64,000 bases of DNA. Source: Polyangium spumosum. Its GTDB lineage: Bacteria; Myxococcota_A; Polyangia; Polyangiales; Polyangiaceae. Below, in pieces: positions 24,606 through 45,659 of this stretch. The stretch spans positions 310,001 through 374,000 of the forward strand of contig NZ_WJIE01000001.1 in the NCBI RefSeq assembly GCF_009649845.1. The letters run 5' to 3'. The translations under genes and the position numbers were made by a program. Numbering within the stretch: position 1 is the stretch's first letter; the number at the start of each line of letters is the position of its first letter. The notes beneath the pieces are model-generated. The model ran no database searches, was not told the DNA's origin, and worked only from the letters and a program-made list of their open reading frames with translations.

Positions 24606-28229
<3,624 letters not shown>

Positions 28230-28235
28230 CCGTAG

Positions 28236-28338
28236 CGCCGGGGTTTCACCCCGGACCCGACCAGGGGTTGTCCACCCCTGGACCCGGACCAGGGCAAGCC
28301 CTGGACCTCAGGTGCATCAACCGCGATGCGGTCGATGC
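28236..28338 (-). repeat. Four-hairpin convergent-gap repeat, copy B (reverse orientation)
   Basis: Read on the minus strand, the stem order matches copy A. Stem 1: GCATCGACCGC and GCGGTTGATGC. Stem 2: CCAGGGC and GCCCTGG. Stem 3: CCAGGGGT and ACCCCTGG around loop GGACA. Stem 4: CCGGGGT and ACCCCGG around GAA. Begins just after the dnaE stop. Confidence 0.8.
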
Positions 28339-28352
28339 ACAGGCATGCGTTC

Positions 28353-28562
28353 GCCATGGCTCGGGACACGCGCGCCATGGTTCGGGACAGGTCCGCCATG
28401 GCCTGGGACGTGTGCGCCATGACTTGAAACACGTCCGCCATGGCTTGGGACAGGTCCGCCATGGCCTGGGACGTGTGCGCCATGACTCGAAACGCGTCCG
28501 CCATGGCTCGCGACGCGTCCGCCATGGCTCGCGACGCGTCCGCCATGGCCCGCGACGGATCC
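28353..28562. repeat. 21-bp tandem array, ten units, with 63-bp higher-order repeat
   Basis: Ten 21-base units, each starting GCCATG, run without spacers from 28353 to 28562. Units 2-4 and 5-7 are near-identical triplets, giving a 63-base higher-order period; units 8 and 9 are identical. On the minus strand every unit is open and encodes a heptapeptide of the type M-A-[DH]-x-[SF]-[RQ]-x; on the plus strand the same phase is interrupted by a stop in unit 4. It ends 8 bases before the stop codon of the leftward gene at 28571. Confidence 0.9.
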
Positions 28563-28570
28563 GCCTTGCT

Positions 28571-29422
28571 TCAGCCCGGCTCCGCCGCAGCCGCCCGCCT
28601 CCGCGTCGTGCCGAGCAGCCGCCGCGTCGTGATCGGCATGAGCTGCGGGATCGACGGATCCTGCTCGTGCGCGCGGTTCCACGCCTTCATCACCCGCTCC
28701 ATGTACAGAAGGCAGATCCCGTCCTGCAGATCGAGATCCGCCTGCGTGACGCCGCCCTGCGTGCGCGCGCCGGCGGCCTTCTCGCTCGTCGACTTCACGC
28801 GGGCCGCGAGCGCCTCGCTCGCGTCGAGGTCCTCGGTCGTGAGACCTCCATCAAAGAGCTGAAGCGCGACCTTCGACTCCGCCTCGGCGATGAGCTCACG
28901 CGCGAGCATGACGAGCGCGGCGAGCGAGCTGGCGAGGGTCTGCGCGTCGACGACGCGGCTGCGCGCCTTGTCCACCCGCTCGGCGAGGCCAGCCGCATGA
29001 TCCGCGACGCCCTCGAGCGTGGTCGCGAGGCGCTCGCGCTCGGCCATGCCCTCCGCATACGTCGCCTCGGCGATGGCGAGCGCGGCGGCGCGGTTCCGCT
29101 CGCGTCCCTCGATGGAGAGGCTGCGTTGCTCCACGAGATCCGCGAGCCTCTTGCCCGCATGCACGAAGACACGCAAGAGCGCATCCGAGAAGCCGAGGAG
29201 GAGCTTCCTCTGCGCCGGCGTGGCCTTGGGCCAGAACTCCGCCGTGATGCCGCCAAAGCGCACGAGATCCGTGAGGATCTTCTCGCTCCGGATACGCGTA
29301 CCTCGCTCGATGAGATCGCCGGGCGCGACATCGATCGCGTAGAGGGCGGCCTGCGCCGGGGTGGGCGCGGGGACGGCCTGGAGGAGGTAAGACCAGGTGT
29401 AGGTGGCCTGCGCGGATGTCAT
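28571..29422 (-). CDS. Helical/coiled-coil protein coupled to MoxR ATPase
   Basis: 283 residues, no signal or membrane segment. Mostly long amphipathic helices (RERLATTLEGVADHAAGLAERVDKARSRVV, SLAALVMLARELIAEAESKVAL), consistent with coiled coil. Family not recognised. Its ATG at 29422 overlaps the ATPase stop in ATGA, so translation is coupled. MoxR-type ATPases usually pair with a von Willebrand A-domain protein; this partner shows no MIDAS motif, so it may be an alternative substrate or adaptor. Ends in an Arg/Ala-rich tail right before the 21-bp array. Confidence 0.8.
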   Translation of the reverse strand: MTSAQATYTWSYLLQAVPAPTPAQAALYAIDVAPGDLIERGTRIRSEKILTDLVRFGGITAEFWPKATPAQRKLLLGFSDALLRVFVHAGKRLADLVEQRSLSIEGRERNRAAALAIAEATYAEGMAERERLATTLEGVADHAAGLAERVDKARSRVVDAQTLASSLAALVMLARELIAEAESKVALQLFDGGLTTEDLDASEALAARVKSTSEKAAGARTQGGVTQADLDLQDGICLLYMERVMKAWNRAHEQDPSIPQLMPITTRRLLGTTRRRAAAAEPG

Positions 29423-30360
29423 GGGTTCGACAGTACCCGAGCGGCGACCATCGCGTCGAGCCGCGGCTCGACCGCGAGCTTGTCCTCCTGGTGCTTGAGC
29501 AAGAGGCCCAGCGTGTCCCGCGCGAGCTCGGGATCGAGCTTGCTCTTGCCGAGCAGGACGAGCGCGCGCGCCCAGTCGAGGGTCTCGCTGACGGCGGGCG
29601 CCTTGCGGAGGTCCATCTTGCGCAGCTCGCCGATGAACGCGACGAGGTGCGAAGCGAGCGTGTGATCGATGCCCGGGACGACGAGCTCGAGGATGGCGAG
29701 CTCGCGCGAGGACGACGGGTAGTCGAGGAAGGCGTGCAAGCAGCGACGACGGAGCGCCTCGGTCATCTCGCGCGTGGCGTTCGTCGTGAGCAGGACGAGC
29801 GGCGGATGCTTGGCGCGGAAGGTGCCGAGCTCGGGGATCGTGACCTGCAGCTCGGAGAGGATCTCGAGGAGGAACGCCTCGAACTCGGGATCGGCGCGAT
29901 CGACCTCGTCGATGAGGAGCACGACGGGCGCGTCGCTGCGGATCGCGGCGAGCAGGGGACGCGAGAGGAGGAAGTGCTCGGTGAAGAACGAGGCCTCGCT
30001 CTTCGCCACGATCTGCGCGGCGCTGGCGAGGGTCGCGCCCTGCGTCTCCACGGCGATCGCGTCGCGCAGGAGCTGCGTGTAGAGCATCTGCTTGGCGTAG
30101 TCCCACTCGTAGAGGGCCTTGGCCTCGTCGAGGCCCTCGTAACACTGCAAGCGGACGAGCGGGCGGCCGAGGGCCTCTGCGGCGGCGCGGGCGAGGTCGG
30201 TCTTGCCGACCCCCGCGGGGCCTTCGAGCATGAGGGGCCGCTGCATGCGGAGGGCGAGCCAGAGGGAGAGCGCCGTCGGCGGGTCGCAGAGGTAGCGCGC
30301 CCCGCCAAGGGCGGCCGAGAGCGCCTGGGGAGAGGCGATCGGATCGGGGGAGGCGGTCAC
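29419..30360 (-). CDS. MoxR-family AAA+ ATPase
   Basis: 313 residues. Chaperone-type ATPase that remodels or activates partner proteins, often inserting metal cofactors. Walker A GPAGVGKT, Walker B LLIDEVDRA, sensor 1 TTNATREM and an arginine-containing LRRRCLHAF block are present. GTG 30360 is the start. The coupled helical protein downstream is the obvious partner. It is divergent from the DUF4388 gene at 30436, with a gap of only 75 bases. Confidence 0.92.
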   Translation of the reverse strand: MTASPDPIASPQALSAALGGARYLCDPPTALSLWLALRMQRPLMLEGPAGVGKTDLARAAAEALGRPLVRLQCYEGLDEAKALYEWDYAKQMLYTQLLRDAIAVETQGATLASAAQIVAKSEASFFTEHFLLSRPLLAAIRSDAPVVLLIDEVDRADPEFEAFLLEILSELQVTIPELGTFRAKHPPLVLLTTNATREMTEALRRRCLHAFLDYPSSSRELAILELVVPGIDHTLASHLVAFIGELRKMDLRKAPAVSETLDWARALVLLGKSKLDPELARDTLGLLLKHQEDKLAVEPRLDAMVAARVLSNP

Positions 30361-42270: not shown

Positions 42271-43665
42271 CTAAAGACCCACGAGGCGGCCGATCACAGC
42301 GGCATCCTCTTCCCCCGCAGGCACGAGCAAGGCCACGGCCGTGCCCGGCGGCGGGTTCTGGCCAGGAGCGAGCGGGACGACACGAATCTCCCCCTCCCGT
42401 CCCACGACCGCGACCCGAACCGCCACGACCGAAGCCACCCGAGCCGCCGAAGCAGGCGCAGGCGCAGCCGTCGGCGAAGGGGTCGGGGTCGTGATGGCGG
42501 GCGCCGCAGGGCGCACAGGAGCAGGCCCGACCGGGGCAACACGCGCCGGCGTGGGCGCAGCAGCCGGCGCGGACGCGGGCTCCTGCGCGACCGGGATGCG
42601 GCCGAGGTCCTTGCCCGAGAGCACGTTCGTCTCGCCGTCGAGGTCGTCGACCGGCATGTCCATCAGCGCGCTCCGCGCACGCGCGGCGGTGATCTCGTCC
42701 TCGAGGGGCGGCGGCGGCGGCGGCGCGACCGGCGGCGCCGAGGTGACGAAATCACCCCAGGCCTGATCGATCACGGTCGTCTTCGGGGCGTTGCGCTTCG
42801 GCGTGGCCTGCGCAGGCGCGGGGGACGCCGCGGCGGCCTTCGGCGCGACGGGCGCAGCCGGGGTGCGGGCGCCTCCAGGCGCGGCGGGAACGACCGCGGC
42901 CATGGCCGCTGCACTCTTGCGCGCGCCGGTGCGCGACGGCAGGCGCTTGCGAGGCCCCGGCGCCCCAGGAGCCTTGCCCGGCGCCGCGGCCGGCGCAGGG
43001 GCGGCGGGTGCAGGCGTGGCGGCGCGGGGCGCGACGCCCGCGGGCAACACGGCGGGCCCGACGGACGTCGGACCGGCCATGTTCGGGCGCACGTGGCTCT
43101 GCGGGCCGACCGAGGGCGGCGCGGGGGTCACCGCCGGCGGCGCCGCCGGGCGCGCGCCACGCGGCAAAGGCGGAGGCGGCGCGCTGCGCGTCACGGGGGC
43201 CTGCGAGACCGGCGCTTGCGAGACCGGAGGCTGGGTCACGAGCGGCGCGCGCGGCGGCGGCGCGGCGACACCTCGCCCCGGGAGCGGCGGCGGGCCCGGG
43301 CGACCCGGGGGCGGCGGCGGCGTCGAGCGGAGCGGAGCGGCCTGGGGCGCGGCCTGGGGCGCGGCCTGGGGCGCGGCCTGAGGCGCGGCCTGAGGCGCAG
43401 GCTCGGGCGCGGGCGCTTGCGACGCGGCTTGCGACGCGGCTTGCGACGCGGCGGCGAGCATGGGCGCGATGTCCGCCGCGGCCTTGAAGAGCTCGAGCGA
43501 ACGCATGTCCCTGTCTGCGTCCGAGGCCTGCTCTGCGGCGCGTTTCAGCCAGCGCAGCGCTTCGGCGTGCTCCCCGCGCCCCCACAGCGCGGAGGCCGTC
43601 GACAGGGCCCAGTGGACATCCTCGTCGTCGTCGTCTTTCGGGGGCGGGATCGGGCTATCAACCAT
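42271..43665 (-). CDS. Low-complexity Ala/Pro-rich protein with TPR-like N-terminus
   Basis: 464 residues. Residues about 15-70 resemble a short TPR/helical domain (VHWALSTASALWGRGEHAEALRWLKRAAEQASDADRD). The rest is intrinsically disordered Pro/Ala with repeats (QAASQAAS, APQAAPQA, SQAPVSQAP) and short conserved islands (TTVIDQAWGDFVTS, MPVDDLDGETNVLSGKDLGRIP). A roughly 55-residue beta-like C-terminus closes it (VRVAVVGREGEIRVVPLAPG). Such proteins are often kinase substrates or scaffolds in myxobacteria. Divergent from the Ser/Thr kinase at 43956; the pairing is suggestive only. Confidence 0.75.
   Translation of the reverse strand: MVDSPIPPPKDDDDEDVHWALSTASALWGRGEHAEALRWLKRAAEQASDADRDMRSLELFKAAADIAPMLAAASQAASQAASQAPAPEPAPQAAPQAAPQAAPQAAPQAAPLRSTPPPPPGRPGPPPLPGRGVAAPPPRAPLVTQPPVSQAPVSQAPVTRSAPPPPLPRGARPAAPPAVTPAPPSVGPQSHVRPNMAGPTSVGPAVLPAGVAPRAATPAPAAPAPAAAPGKAPGAPGPRKRLPSRTGARKSAAAMAAVVPAAPGGARTPAAPVAPKAAAASPAPAQATPKRNAPKTTVIDQAWGDFVTSAPPVAPPPPPPLEDEITAARARSALMDMPVDDLDGETNVLSGKDLGRIPVAQEPASAPAAAPTPARVAPVGPAPVRPAAPAITTPTPSPTAAPAPASAARVASVVAVRVAVVGREGEIRVVPLAPGQNPPPGTAVALLVPAGEEDAAVIGRLVGL
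43340..43399. repeat. 12-bp tandem repeat, five units, within coding sequence
   Basis: Five near-identical 12-base units (GCCTGGGGCGCG type) encode repeated Ala-Pro-Gln-Ala in the low-complexity protein; likely replication slippage. Confidence 0.85.
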
Positions 43666-43955: not shown

Positions 43956-45659
43956 GTGCTTCATAATCGAGATCTCAAGCCCGGCGTCACGCTAGGACGC
44001 TACGAGATCCTCATGCCCGTGGCGCAGGGCGGGATGGCCGCCGTGTGGGCCGCGCGCATGGTCGGCTCGCGCGGCTTCCAGAAGCTCGTCGCCATCAAGA
44101 CGATGCTGCCGGGCCTCTCGGAAGATCCCGAGTTCGAGGCGATGTTCCTCGACGAGGCGCGGCTCGCGTCGCGCATCCGGCACCCGCACGTCGCCGAGAT
44201 CCTCGACCTCGGCGACGAGAACGGCGTGCTCTACATCGTGATGGAGTGGATCAACGGAGAGTCGCTCTTCGTGATCAACCGCGCGGCCAAGGAGCAGGGC
44301 GGCTTTCCCCTCCCCTTGCTCCTGCGCATCCTCTCGAGCGCCTGCGCGGGCCTGAACGCCGCGCACGAGATGCGCGACGACGAGGGCCAACCGCTCGGCC
44401 TCGTGCACCGCGACGTGAACCCCGCGAACGTCATGGTCTCGTACGACGGCATCGTGAAGATCGTCGACTTCGGCGTCGCGAAGGCCACGGCGAACGTCAC
44501 GATCACGCGCGTGCCCGGCATGATGAAGGGCAAAGCGCACTACATGTCGCCCGAGCAGATCCGCGGCGAGCGGCTCGATCGGCGCTCGGACATCTTCTCG
44601 CTCGGGATCCTCATGTACGTGATGATCACCGGGCGGCACCCGTTCAAGGCGAGCACGGACAAACAGACGATGGACAACATCGTCGGCAACGATCCCGTCC
44701 CGCTCCGCGAGCTCGTGCCCTCCGTGCGGCCGGACCTCGAGGCCGTGGTCATGCGCGCGCTCGCCAAGCGCGCCTCCGATCGCTGGATCGACTGCGCCGA
44801 GATGCAACGCGCGCTCGATCAGATCACGAACGCCATCGGCGCGGCCGTGACCGACGGCGACGTGGCTTCGTTCATGCGCAAGGTGATGGGCGAACGATCG
44901 TCGCAGCGGCGCGCCGAGATCGCCGCGTCGATCCAGGCTGCGGATGCGCGTGGGGTCGAGAGCAACGAGGTGCCTGCGTCGCGGCGGCGCGGCGGTCCTC
45001 CGTCGTCGCGTGGGGCTTCGCTCGAGGGCATCATCCCGGTCTCGCTCGACGGCGGGGGGGCTTCACCCGCGCCGCCGCCCGCGATCGTCGTCCCGAGCGT
45101 GCCCCCTCCCCCGGCTGCTGCGCCGACGGCGCTCGTCACGTCGAAGCGCAAGCGGTCCGTGTGGCCGTGGCTCGTGTTTTTGCTCTTCGTGTCGGTCGGG
45201 GGCGCGGCGGCTGCGCTTCGGCTCGGGCACTTGCCCATGGCCGAGCCGCTCGTCCCGCCTGCGCTTCGCTGGCTCCTGCCGCCTGCGAAGGTGGCGGCTG
45301 CGCCTGTTCCCGCTCCGACGGCGCCGGCGATCACGGCTGCGCCCTCTGCGAGCGCGGCTCCTCCTGCGAGCGCGGCTGCGCCGATCGACGACGCGGCCCT
45401 CGATGCAGGTGCGAGCGACGCGGCCCTCGATGCAGGTGCGAGCGACGCGGCCCTCGATGCGGATGCGAGCGACGCGGCCGCGCTCGACGCGGGCCTCGTG
45501 GACGGCGGCTCGCCGGGCTACAAATACCTCCCGCACAACGCTGGGGGTGGCTGGCAGCGCGTCGACGGCCTCTGGTATCCGCCTCCGTGGTGGAGGCCGC
45601 CGACGAAGGTGCCTGCGCCGACGGGCGGCAAAATCGACACCACCGACCCCTACGAATGA
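43956..45659 (+). CDS. Ser/Thr protein kinase with one membrane segment
   Basis: 567 residues, GTG 43956. Eukaryote-like kinase domain (residues about 15-290): VAIK Lys48, HRDVNPAN (151-158), DFG (171-173), SPEQIRGERLDRRSDIFSLG. The catalytic loop reads HRDVNP instead of HRDLKP. A Ser/Pro linker leads to a membrane helix (WPWLVFLLFVSVGGAAAAL, about residues 405-425), followed by an Ala/Pro-rich periplasmic part. That part carries a three-unit DAALDAGAS repeat and ends in a Trp/Pro-rich stretch (GGGWQRVDGLWYPPPWWRPP). Probable sensor kinase anchored in the inner membrane. Confidence 0.93.
   Translation: MLHNRDLKPGVTLGRYEILMPVAQGGMAAVWAARMVGSRGFQKLVAIKTMLPGLSEDPEFEAMFLDEARLASRIRHPHVAEILDLGDENGVLYIVMEWINGESLFVINRAAKEQGGFPLPLLLRILSSACAGLNAAHEMRDDEGQPLGLVHRDVNPANVMVSYDGIVKIVDFGVAKATANVTITRVPGMMKGKAHYMSPEQIRGERLDRRSDIFSLGILMYVMITGRHPFKASTDKQTMDNIVGNDPVPLRELVPSVRPDLEAVVMRALAKRASDRWIDCAEMQRALDQITNAIGAAVTDGDVASFMRKVMGERSSQRRAEIAASIQAADARGVESNEVPASRRRGGPPSSRGASLEGIIPVSLDGGGASPAPPPAIVVPSVPPPPAAAPTALVTSKRKRSVWPWLVFLLFVSVGGAAAALRLGHLPMAEPLVPPALRWLLPPAKVAAAPVPAPTAPAITAAPSASAAPPASAAAPIDDAALDAGASDAALDAGASDAALDADASDAAALDAGLVDGGSPGYKYLPHNAGGGWQRVDGLWYPPPWWRPPTKVPAPTGGKIDTTDPYE
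45390..45470 (+). repeat. 27-bp tandem repeat, three units, within kinase gene
   Basis: Three 27-base units encode DAALDAGAS, DAALDAGAS and DAALDADAS in the predicted periplasmic tail of the kinase. Confidence 0.9.

Follow-up and report, generated by a model that had tools for sequence, protein, structure and literature searches.

Repeats between bacterial genes are often regarded as junk or as strain markers, and several described kinds resemble the locus reported here in one respect or another. Intergenic minisatellites (VNTR loci) consist of non-coding units that lie head to tail and vary in number. The REP/BIME elements of enterobacteria, which form a single sequence family, are palindromic and dispersed, and they are found at the 3' ends of genes and in convergent gaps. 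The iterons of plasmid origins lie beside one gene and repeat directly, with a unit length of about two helical turns. In the TIGR system, Tas genes have arrays on their upstream and/or downstream side that alternate repeats of 8-12 nt with 9-nt spacers, with products of 36 nt (PMC12045711).

We analyzed a 21-bp tandem array in a 64,000-nucleotide stretch of Polyangium spumosum DNA (the window), which lies between dnaE and a convergent, uncharacterised gene that we call X. Its units run head to tail outside genes, as in an intergenic minisatellite, and as in VNTR loci they appear to be non-coding; their number differs between the two species compared. Unlike ordinary minisatellites, however, arrays on this contig have periods grouped around multiples of two turns of the helix, and they are tied to one gene family. 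Like REP/BIME elements, the arrays are placed at gene 3' ends and in convergent gaps, but those elements are dispersed, whereas the 21-bp unit occupies one place in the genome. Neither the array sequence nor a two-anchor pattern of its unit (up to two mismatches) was matched in the 10.76-Mb genome beyond the home locus, and among 60 genomes of the family, a sample to which Polyangium sp. 15x6 does not belong, the pattern without mismatches was found in the own genome only. The units also resemble iterons, in that they are directly repeated, measure about two turns of the helix and adjoin one gene; in contrast to these the array is chromosomal, neither it nor X was matched in a plasmid collection, and X showed no match to initiator families in Pfam, NCBIfam and PHROGs at the limits used. 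With TIGR arrays the array shares its position upstream and/or downstream of one protein family and its locus-specific sequences. It differs from them in being built of near-identical 21-mers without spacers or dual repeats and in that X has no recognised domain. A Nop-domain protein is expected beside a TIGR array; X gave no Pfam match at E 0.01. Constant repeats split by unique spacers, as in a CRISPR array, were likewise absent from 28353-28562.

The ten head-to-tail units that the preliminary description had reported were confirmed, with GCCATG beginning each of them at 28353 + 21n (Table 1). TRF detected a period of 21 over 10.4 copies (79% match) and a period of 63 over 28352-28547 (3.1 copies, 85% match). 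Unit pairs 2/5, 3/6 and 4/7 agree at 19, 21 and 19 of 21 bases, and units 8 and 9 are identical. The duplication of units 2-4 as 5-7 that had been proposed is thus upheld by the near-identity of its two copies, while its recent date is uncertain: the syntenic array of a second species likewise has, at two places, a unit with GTGTGC or GTATGC and next to it a CCATGAC unit, in this order. This pair of variants therefore predates the split of the two species, and not all of the variation is recent.

Table 1. Features of the dnaE-X region (window coordinates unless marked C1, the home contig)
Feature	Position	Strand	Remarks
dnaE, DNA polymerase III alpha subunit	24606..28229	+	convergent with X; Pfam
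Short-hairpin cluster of a dispersed repeat	28240..28310	.	between dnaE and the array
Tandem array	28353..28562	.	ten 21-bp units starting GCCATG; TRF limits 28347-28565
63-bp higher-order repeat, first copy (units 2-4)	28374..28436	.	59/63 bases identical to 28437-28499
63-bp higher-order repeat, second copy (units 5-7)	28437..28499	.	
Gene X	28571..29422	-	283 aa, uncharacterised, predicted all-helical
AAA ATPase gene	29419..30360	-	Pfam AAA_5, E 1.3e-13; TGA overlaps ATG of X
Hairpin repeat elsewhere on C1	37393, 152264, 246194, 246226, 259169, 518345, 550015, 550045, 942408, 968839, 1068248 (C1)		

The convergent gap between dnaE and X measures 341 bp, with the array on the X side and the hairpin cluster on the dnaE side. 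The stop codon of the AAA ATPase gene and the start codon of X overlap in an ATGA at 29419-29422, which suggests that the two genes are translationally coupled. We compared this arrangement with that of other genomes; Polyangium sp. 15x6, 6x1 and y55x31 belong to the same genus as the window genome. In Polyangium sp. 15x6 (G005, locus L013) the same gap holds 11 CCATG units against 10 here, a comparison between two species and not between strains of one, and the hairpin cluster is absent from it. CCATG was invariant in 21 of 21 units over the two species, columns 12 and 16-18 of the unit being the most variable. Both X and the array are present in the own genome and in G005, and both are absent from four other Polyangium genomes (G001-G004), where dnaE directly abuts the AAA gene. 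The longest branch in the unrooted dnaE and AAA-region trees was that of the own genome, and G005, with X and the array, grouped with G003, which has neither. Together, the pattern of presence and the trees indicate that X and the array were gained or lost as a block, either more than once or with transfer. The junction in G001 (L084) is tight: dnaE and the AAA gene end in stop codons that share bases in a CTAG, and the convergent genes touch. Outside the genus, relatives of the AAA gene lay on contigs other than those with X matches in G008, G034 and G050, and in G023 about 0.9 Mb from the X match.

We next consider whether the array is translated, since a heptapeptide frame on the minus strand had been described as open through all units. 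This frame is indeed open across the ten units, in phase with the TGA of X at 28571-28573, but it is not the sole one, as four of six frames are open (three of three on the minus strand and one on the plus strand). Permutation of the unit columns left an average of 3.8 frames open, and 99.9% of 3000 trials had one open frame or more. An open frame is therefore no evidence of coding here, and in GC-rich 21-bp arrays open frames are to be expected and are uninformative on this point. The best codon score of the six array frames was +0.03 per codon, below the 1st percentile (0.07) of the genes of at least 300 bp called in this analysis. Furthermore, the frame beyond the X stop in Polyangium sp. 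15x6 contains another stop, and one 22-bp spacing between its units amounts to a frameshift, so that the conservation of frame expected of a protein-coding repeat was not found between the species. The two products that had been envisaged fared no better. A decayed C-terminal extension is at odds with the length of X, whose paralogues in the own genome have 287 and 288 aa, and relatives whose 3' side was read show no in-frame heptad extension; a small heptad-repeat protein is contradicted by the stop and frameshift of the second species and by codon usage that is not gene-like.

Searches with X itself gave no NCBIfam match near cut-off and no PADLOC or PHROGs match at E 1, and nothing better than E 0.11 among PDB sequences. 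Its structural model (pLDDT 89, pTM 0.61) had no Foldseek match at E 0.001, and the best VIA-align scores, Z 8.5 to a LemA protein and 7.8 to, among others, an S23-family protein, fall in the usual range for helical bundles. The protein is near neutral, and its pI of 6.4 gives no hint of DNA binding. Of 59 relatives, 16 had X matches, and a profile search gave matches in 5 of 140 genomes from the phylum, the own genome being counted in both. From these matches we examined the 42 distinct ones with a stated locus (30 of 37 sequence matches and 12 of 19 profile matches, the other 7 being already included) for an array within 500 bp of the gene, defined by a self-similarity score of at least 20 at a lag of 20-22, 41-44 or 62-66; this definition was chosen after the first loci had been seen, and genes were called in this analysis.

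X-family genes were flanked by such arrays far more often than other genes. An array was present at 22 of the 42 X loci and at 89 of 1929 background genes (Fisher p 8e-18, orthologues being treated as independent), and when the background was restricted to genes that adjoin a gap of 200 bp or more it was 79 of 775 (Fisher p 8e-11). The background came from six genomes and covers a minority of the X-bearing ones: the own contig (71/1168), G004 (2/271), G036 (2/104), G048 (4/160), G024 (4/132) and G023 (6/94), the own and G023 counts including their X genes. X fragments at contig ends were kept among the 42 loci, and several of these enter the count as loci lacking an array. By this definition each of the three X genes in the own genome has an array, which in the family may lie 5' or 3' of the gene. 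G020 has two X copies, 86.6% identical over 246 aa, and each carries a 22-bp array on the 3' side in the same orientation, and their units are alike at 19 of 22 bases, compared to a maximum of 16 in 5000 shuffles. Thus, the X gene and its array were duplicated jointly in this genome. Units beside different X genes were otherwise mostly unlike in sequence; for the unit studied here and that beside the second X gene (14 of 21 bases alike) we claim no kinship, as about 2% of shuffled pairs reached this value. The remaining 20 X loci had no array by this definition, among them L032, L033 and L041 from three other Polyangium species, which are the closest relatives of the third X gene of the own genome. 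Among all array-flanking genes the number of paralogue pairs was not raised (5 versus 4.6 +/- 3.8 in random sets), and three of these five pairs were X genes. The link to the X family thus offers a concrete, uncharacterised protein as a candidate for study.

The periods of other arrays were analyzed on the home contig (C1; 1,503,602 bp), on which we called 1174 genes by codon usage. Strong self-similarity (score at least 25) was found in 42 of 499 intergenic gaps of at least 80 bp and in none after base shuffling. Their best lags were 15 (two), 18, 21 (nine), 28, 33, 42 (four), 43 (ten), 65, 84, 85 (two), 86 (three), 103, 107, 126, 127, 128 (two) and 130. Leaving out the lags of 15, 15 and 18 and the lag of 103, which belongs to a tandem tRNA-Gly pair, 35 of 38 lags differed by no more than 1.5 bp from a multiple of 21.2 bp. 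This period was fitted to the observed lags, and its excess was 29.6; 300 random lag sets given the same fit did not exceed 11.3. Intergenic periods on this contig therefore cluster at multiples of about 21.3 bp, while TRF periods within coding sequence were mostly multiples of three. The sequences of the arrays vary by place, with a few shared families, and no motif was general to the 34 arrays with lags of 21, 42, 43, 65, 85, 86, 107 or 126-128, although some 6- and 7-mers were enriched (AGGTCG in 14 of 34 versus 5.8 expected). Clustering at two-turn multiples among mostly unrelated arrays would suggest a physical rule, either of repeat birth or of binding. These 34 arrays were enriched in convergent gaps (12/47) compared to all others (p = 1.4e-5), the counts being 15/259 for co-directional gaps and 7/193 for divergent ones. 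Arrays with longer units showed a purine/pyrimidine phasing of about 10.7 bp, which exceeded the 90th percentile of column permutations in 14 of 32 cases (p = 8e-7, uncorrected for taking the best of seven base classes at two periods); the 21-bp array itself lacked it (percentile 0.51). Intergenic arrays with units of 43 to 128 bp lie on C1 at 107271, 613302, 657435, 790673, 820615, 841929, 1033353, 1067824 and 1385025, among others, and many of them carry imperfect dyads. The tRNA-Gly (gcc) pair seen as a 103-bp repeat lies at about 752421-752598 of C1 (L102:18421-18598).

We also determined intergenic lags in samples of other genomes, which may include coding repeats missed by the gene caller used here. 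Three of six lags fell in the series in G004, of the same genus (15, 18, 43, 64, 72 and 108; 380 kb), and three of five in G036 (22, 27, 28, 42 and 63; 200 kb), in which X was not found. G048 (200 kb) showed a series of about 41 bp (35, 41, 42, 80, 84 and 124). Essentially no series was seen in G023 (19, 21, 81, 87 and 98; 200 kb) or in G024 (18, 23, 24, 24, 30, 34, 42, 50, 62, 71, 90, 99 and 112; 200 kb), a member of the same family in which X was not found. The sampled loci of G024 (L187-L196) hold many intergenic arrays of other periods, for example 23, 24, 34, 50, 71, 99 and 112 bp. The series of about 21.3 bp thus holds for the own genome and, tentatively, for the genus, and we make no claim for the phylum. 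Among the titles and abstracts listed in literature searches, none described such arrays in myxobacteria.

The reading that we favor, at a probability of roughly 0.4, is that the array is a non-coding, helically phased minisatellite in the dnaE-X gap that is co-inherited with X and acts at the level of DNA. A period of two turns would set the constant CCATG of every unit on one face of the helix, and it is from this geometry that we infer a role at the level of DNA; the array might then offer a protein a phased platform to bind, or it might be a spacer that acts on topology or blocks transcription, here between genes transcribed toward each other. That the units are protein-binding sites, as had been suggested, is compatible with a CCATG present in all 21 units and spaced by two helical turns. 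Almost as likely is a neutral minisatellite that arises by slippage or unequal crossing-over and survives where promoters are left undisturbed, mainly in convergent gaps. The step of about 21 bp would then reflect how duplications arise in these bacteria and not selection, and X genes would lie in fast-changing places that gather arrays. Such neutrality is consistent with the difference in unit number between species (10 and 11), the scarcity of arrays in divergent gaps, the gain or loss of the array among X relatives, the lack of a general motif and the ordinary number of paralogue pairs beside arrays. However, slippage has no reason to favor two-turn multiples that are not divisible by three (43, 65, 85, 86, 107, 127 and 128), the link to X holds against genes with long gaps, and CCATG does not vary. 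A stronger form of the DNA-level reading we regard as improbable: here arrays phased by two turns, next to the X gene and at other places, would be where X itself or a partner protein assembles, and the resulting nucleoprotein tracts would insulate convergent transcription. Were it true, the clustering at about 21.3 bp would be the footprint of a protein's geometry, with sequence drifting and phase kept; the missing arrays at L032, L033 and L041 count against a strict module of X and array.

A role in RNA, as a bidirectional terminator or a structured 3' UTR common to dnaE and the AAA-X operon, seems slightly less probable again, and less likely than either the DNA-level or the neutral reading. 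The enrichment of arrays between convergent genes would suit it, and the minus strand of the array and the plus strand of the whole gap fold at z -4.6 and -6.8, respectively, against dinucleotide shuffles. Compared to tandem copies of shuffled units, however, the array reached z of just -1.5 and -1.7, the consensus stem has 3 pairs with zero double changes, and a simple scan found neither a promoter nor a terminator-like site; the hairpin cluster beside dnaE is the better terminator candidate. It is this ordinary folding once repetition is controlled, together with the absence of a terminator-like site in the scan, that lowers the standing of an RNA role. Over the 34 contig arrays, z in the same tandem-shuffle test scattered widely about a mean of -1.5, so RNA structure may matter for some of those with longer units. 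Translation of the array, whether as a decayed tail of X or as a heptad-repeat protein, is very unlikely: a heptad frame that is open through ten units and, in either species, keeps phase with the stop codon of X speaks weakly for it, and it is opposed by the in-frame stop and frameshift of Polyangium sp. 15x6, by codon use unlike that of genes, by the open frames that permutation alone produces and by the usual length at which X ends. We give least credence to the view that X is the protein of a CRISPR-like or TIGR-like system and the array the source of its guide RNAs. An array that adjoins a single protein family, 5' or 3' of the gene, does recall TIGR arrays and Tas genes, but constant repeats with variable spacers are missing, the 21-bp units are unlike those of TIGR as described there (PMC12045711), and the Pfam and PADLOC searches with X gave no match at E 0.01 and E 1, respectively.

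Some further repeats were observed. Among the contig arrays, covariation was modest and confined to a few, with its count reached by shuffles in 4 of 200 (415865), 7 of 200 (613302) and 19 of 200 (657435) trials. Rfam returned only matches below gathering score, the best of them in the hairpin cluster (E 0.0096; 23.6 bits versus 45); the cluster has a match of this kind to Ms_IGR-2. The hairpin repeat resembling CCAGGGGTGGACAACCCCTGG had 12 matches on the 1.5-Mb contig with up to four errors, 11 of them besides the cluster next to dnaE. The window also holds two arrays of 12-bp units (6.3 and 3.2 copies) and one of 27-bp units (3.4 copies, 96% match) at 43337-43452 and 45389-45479.
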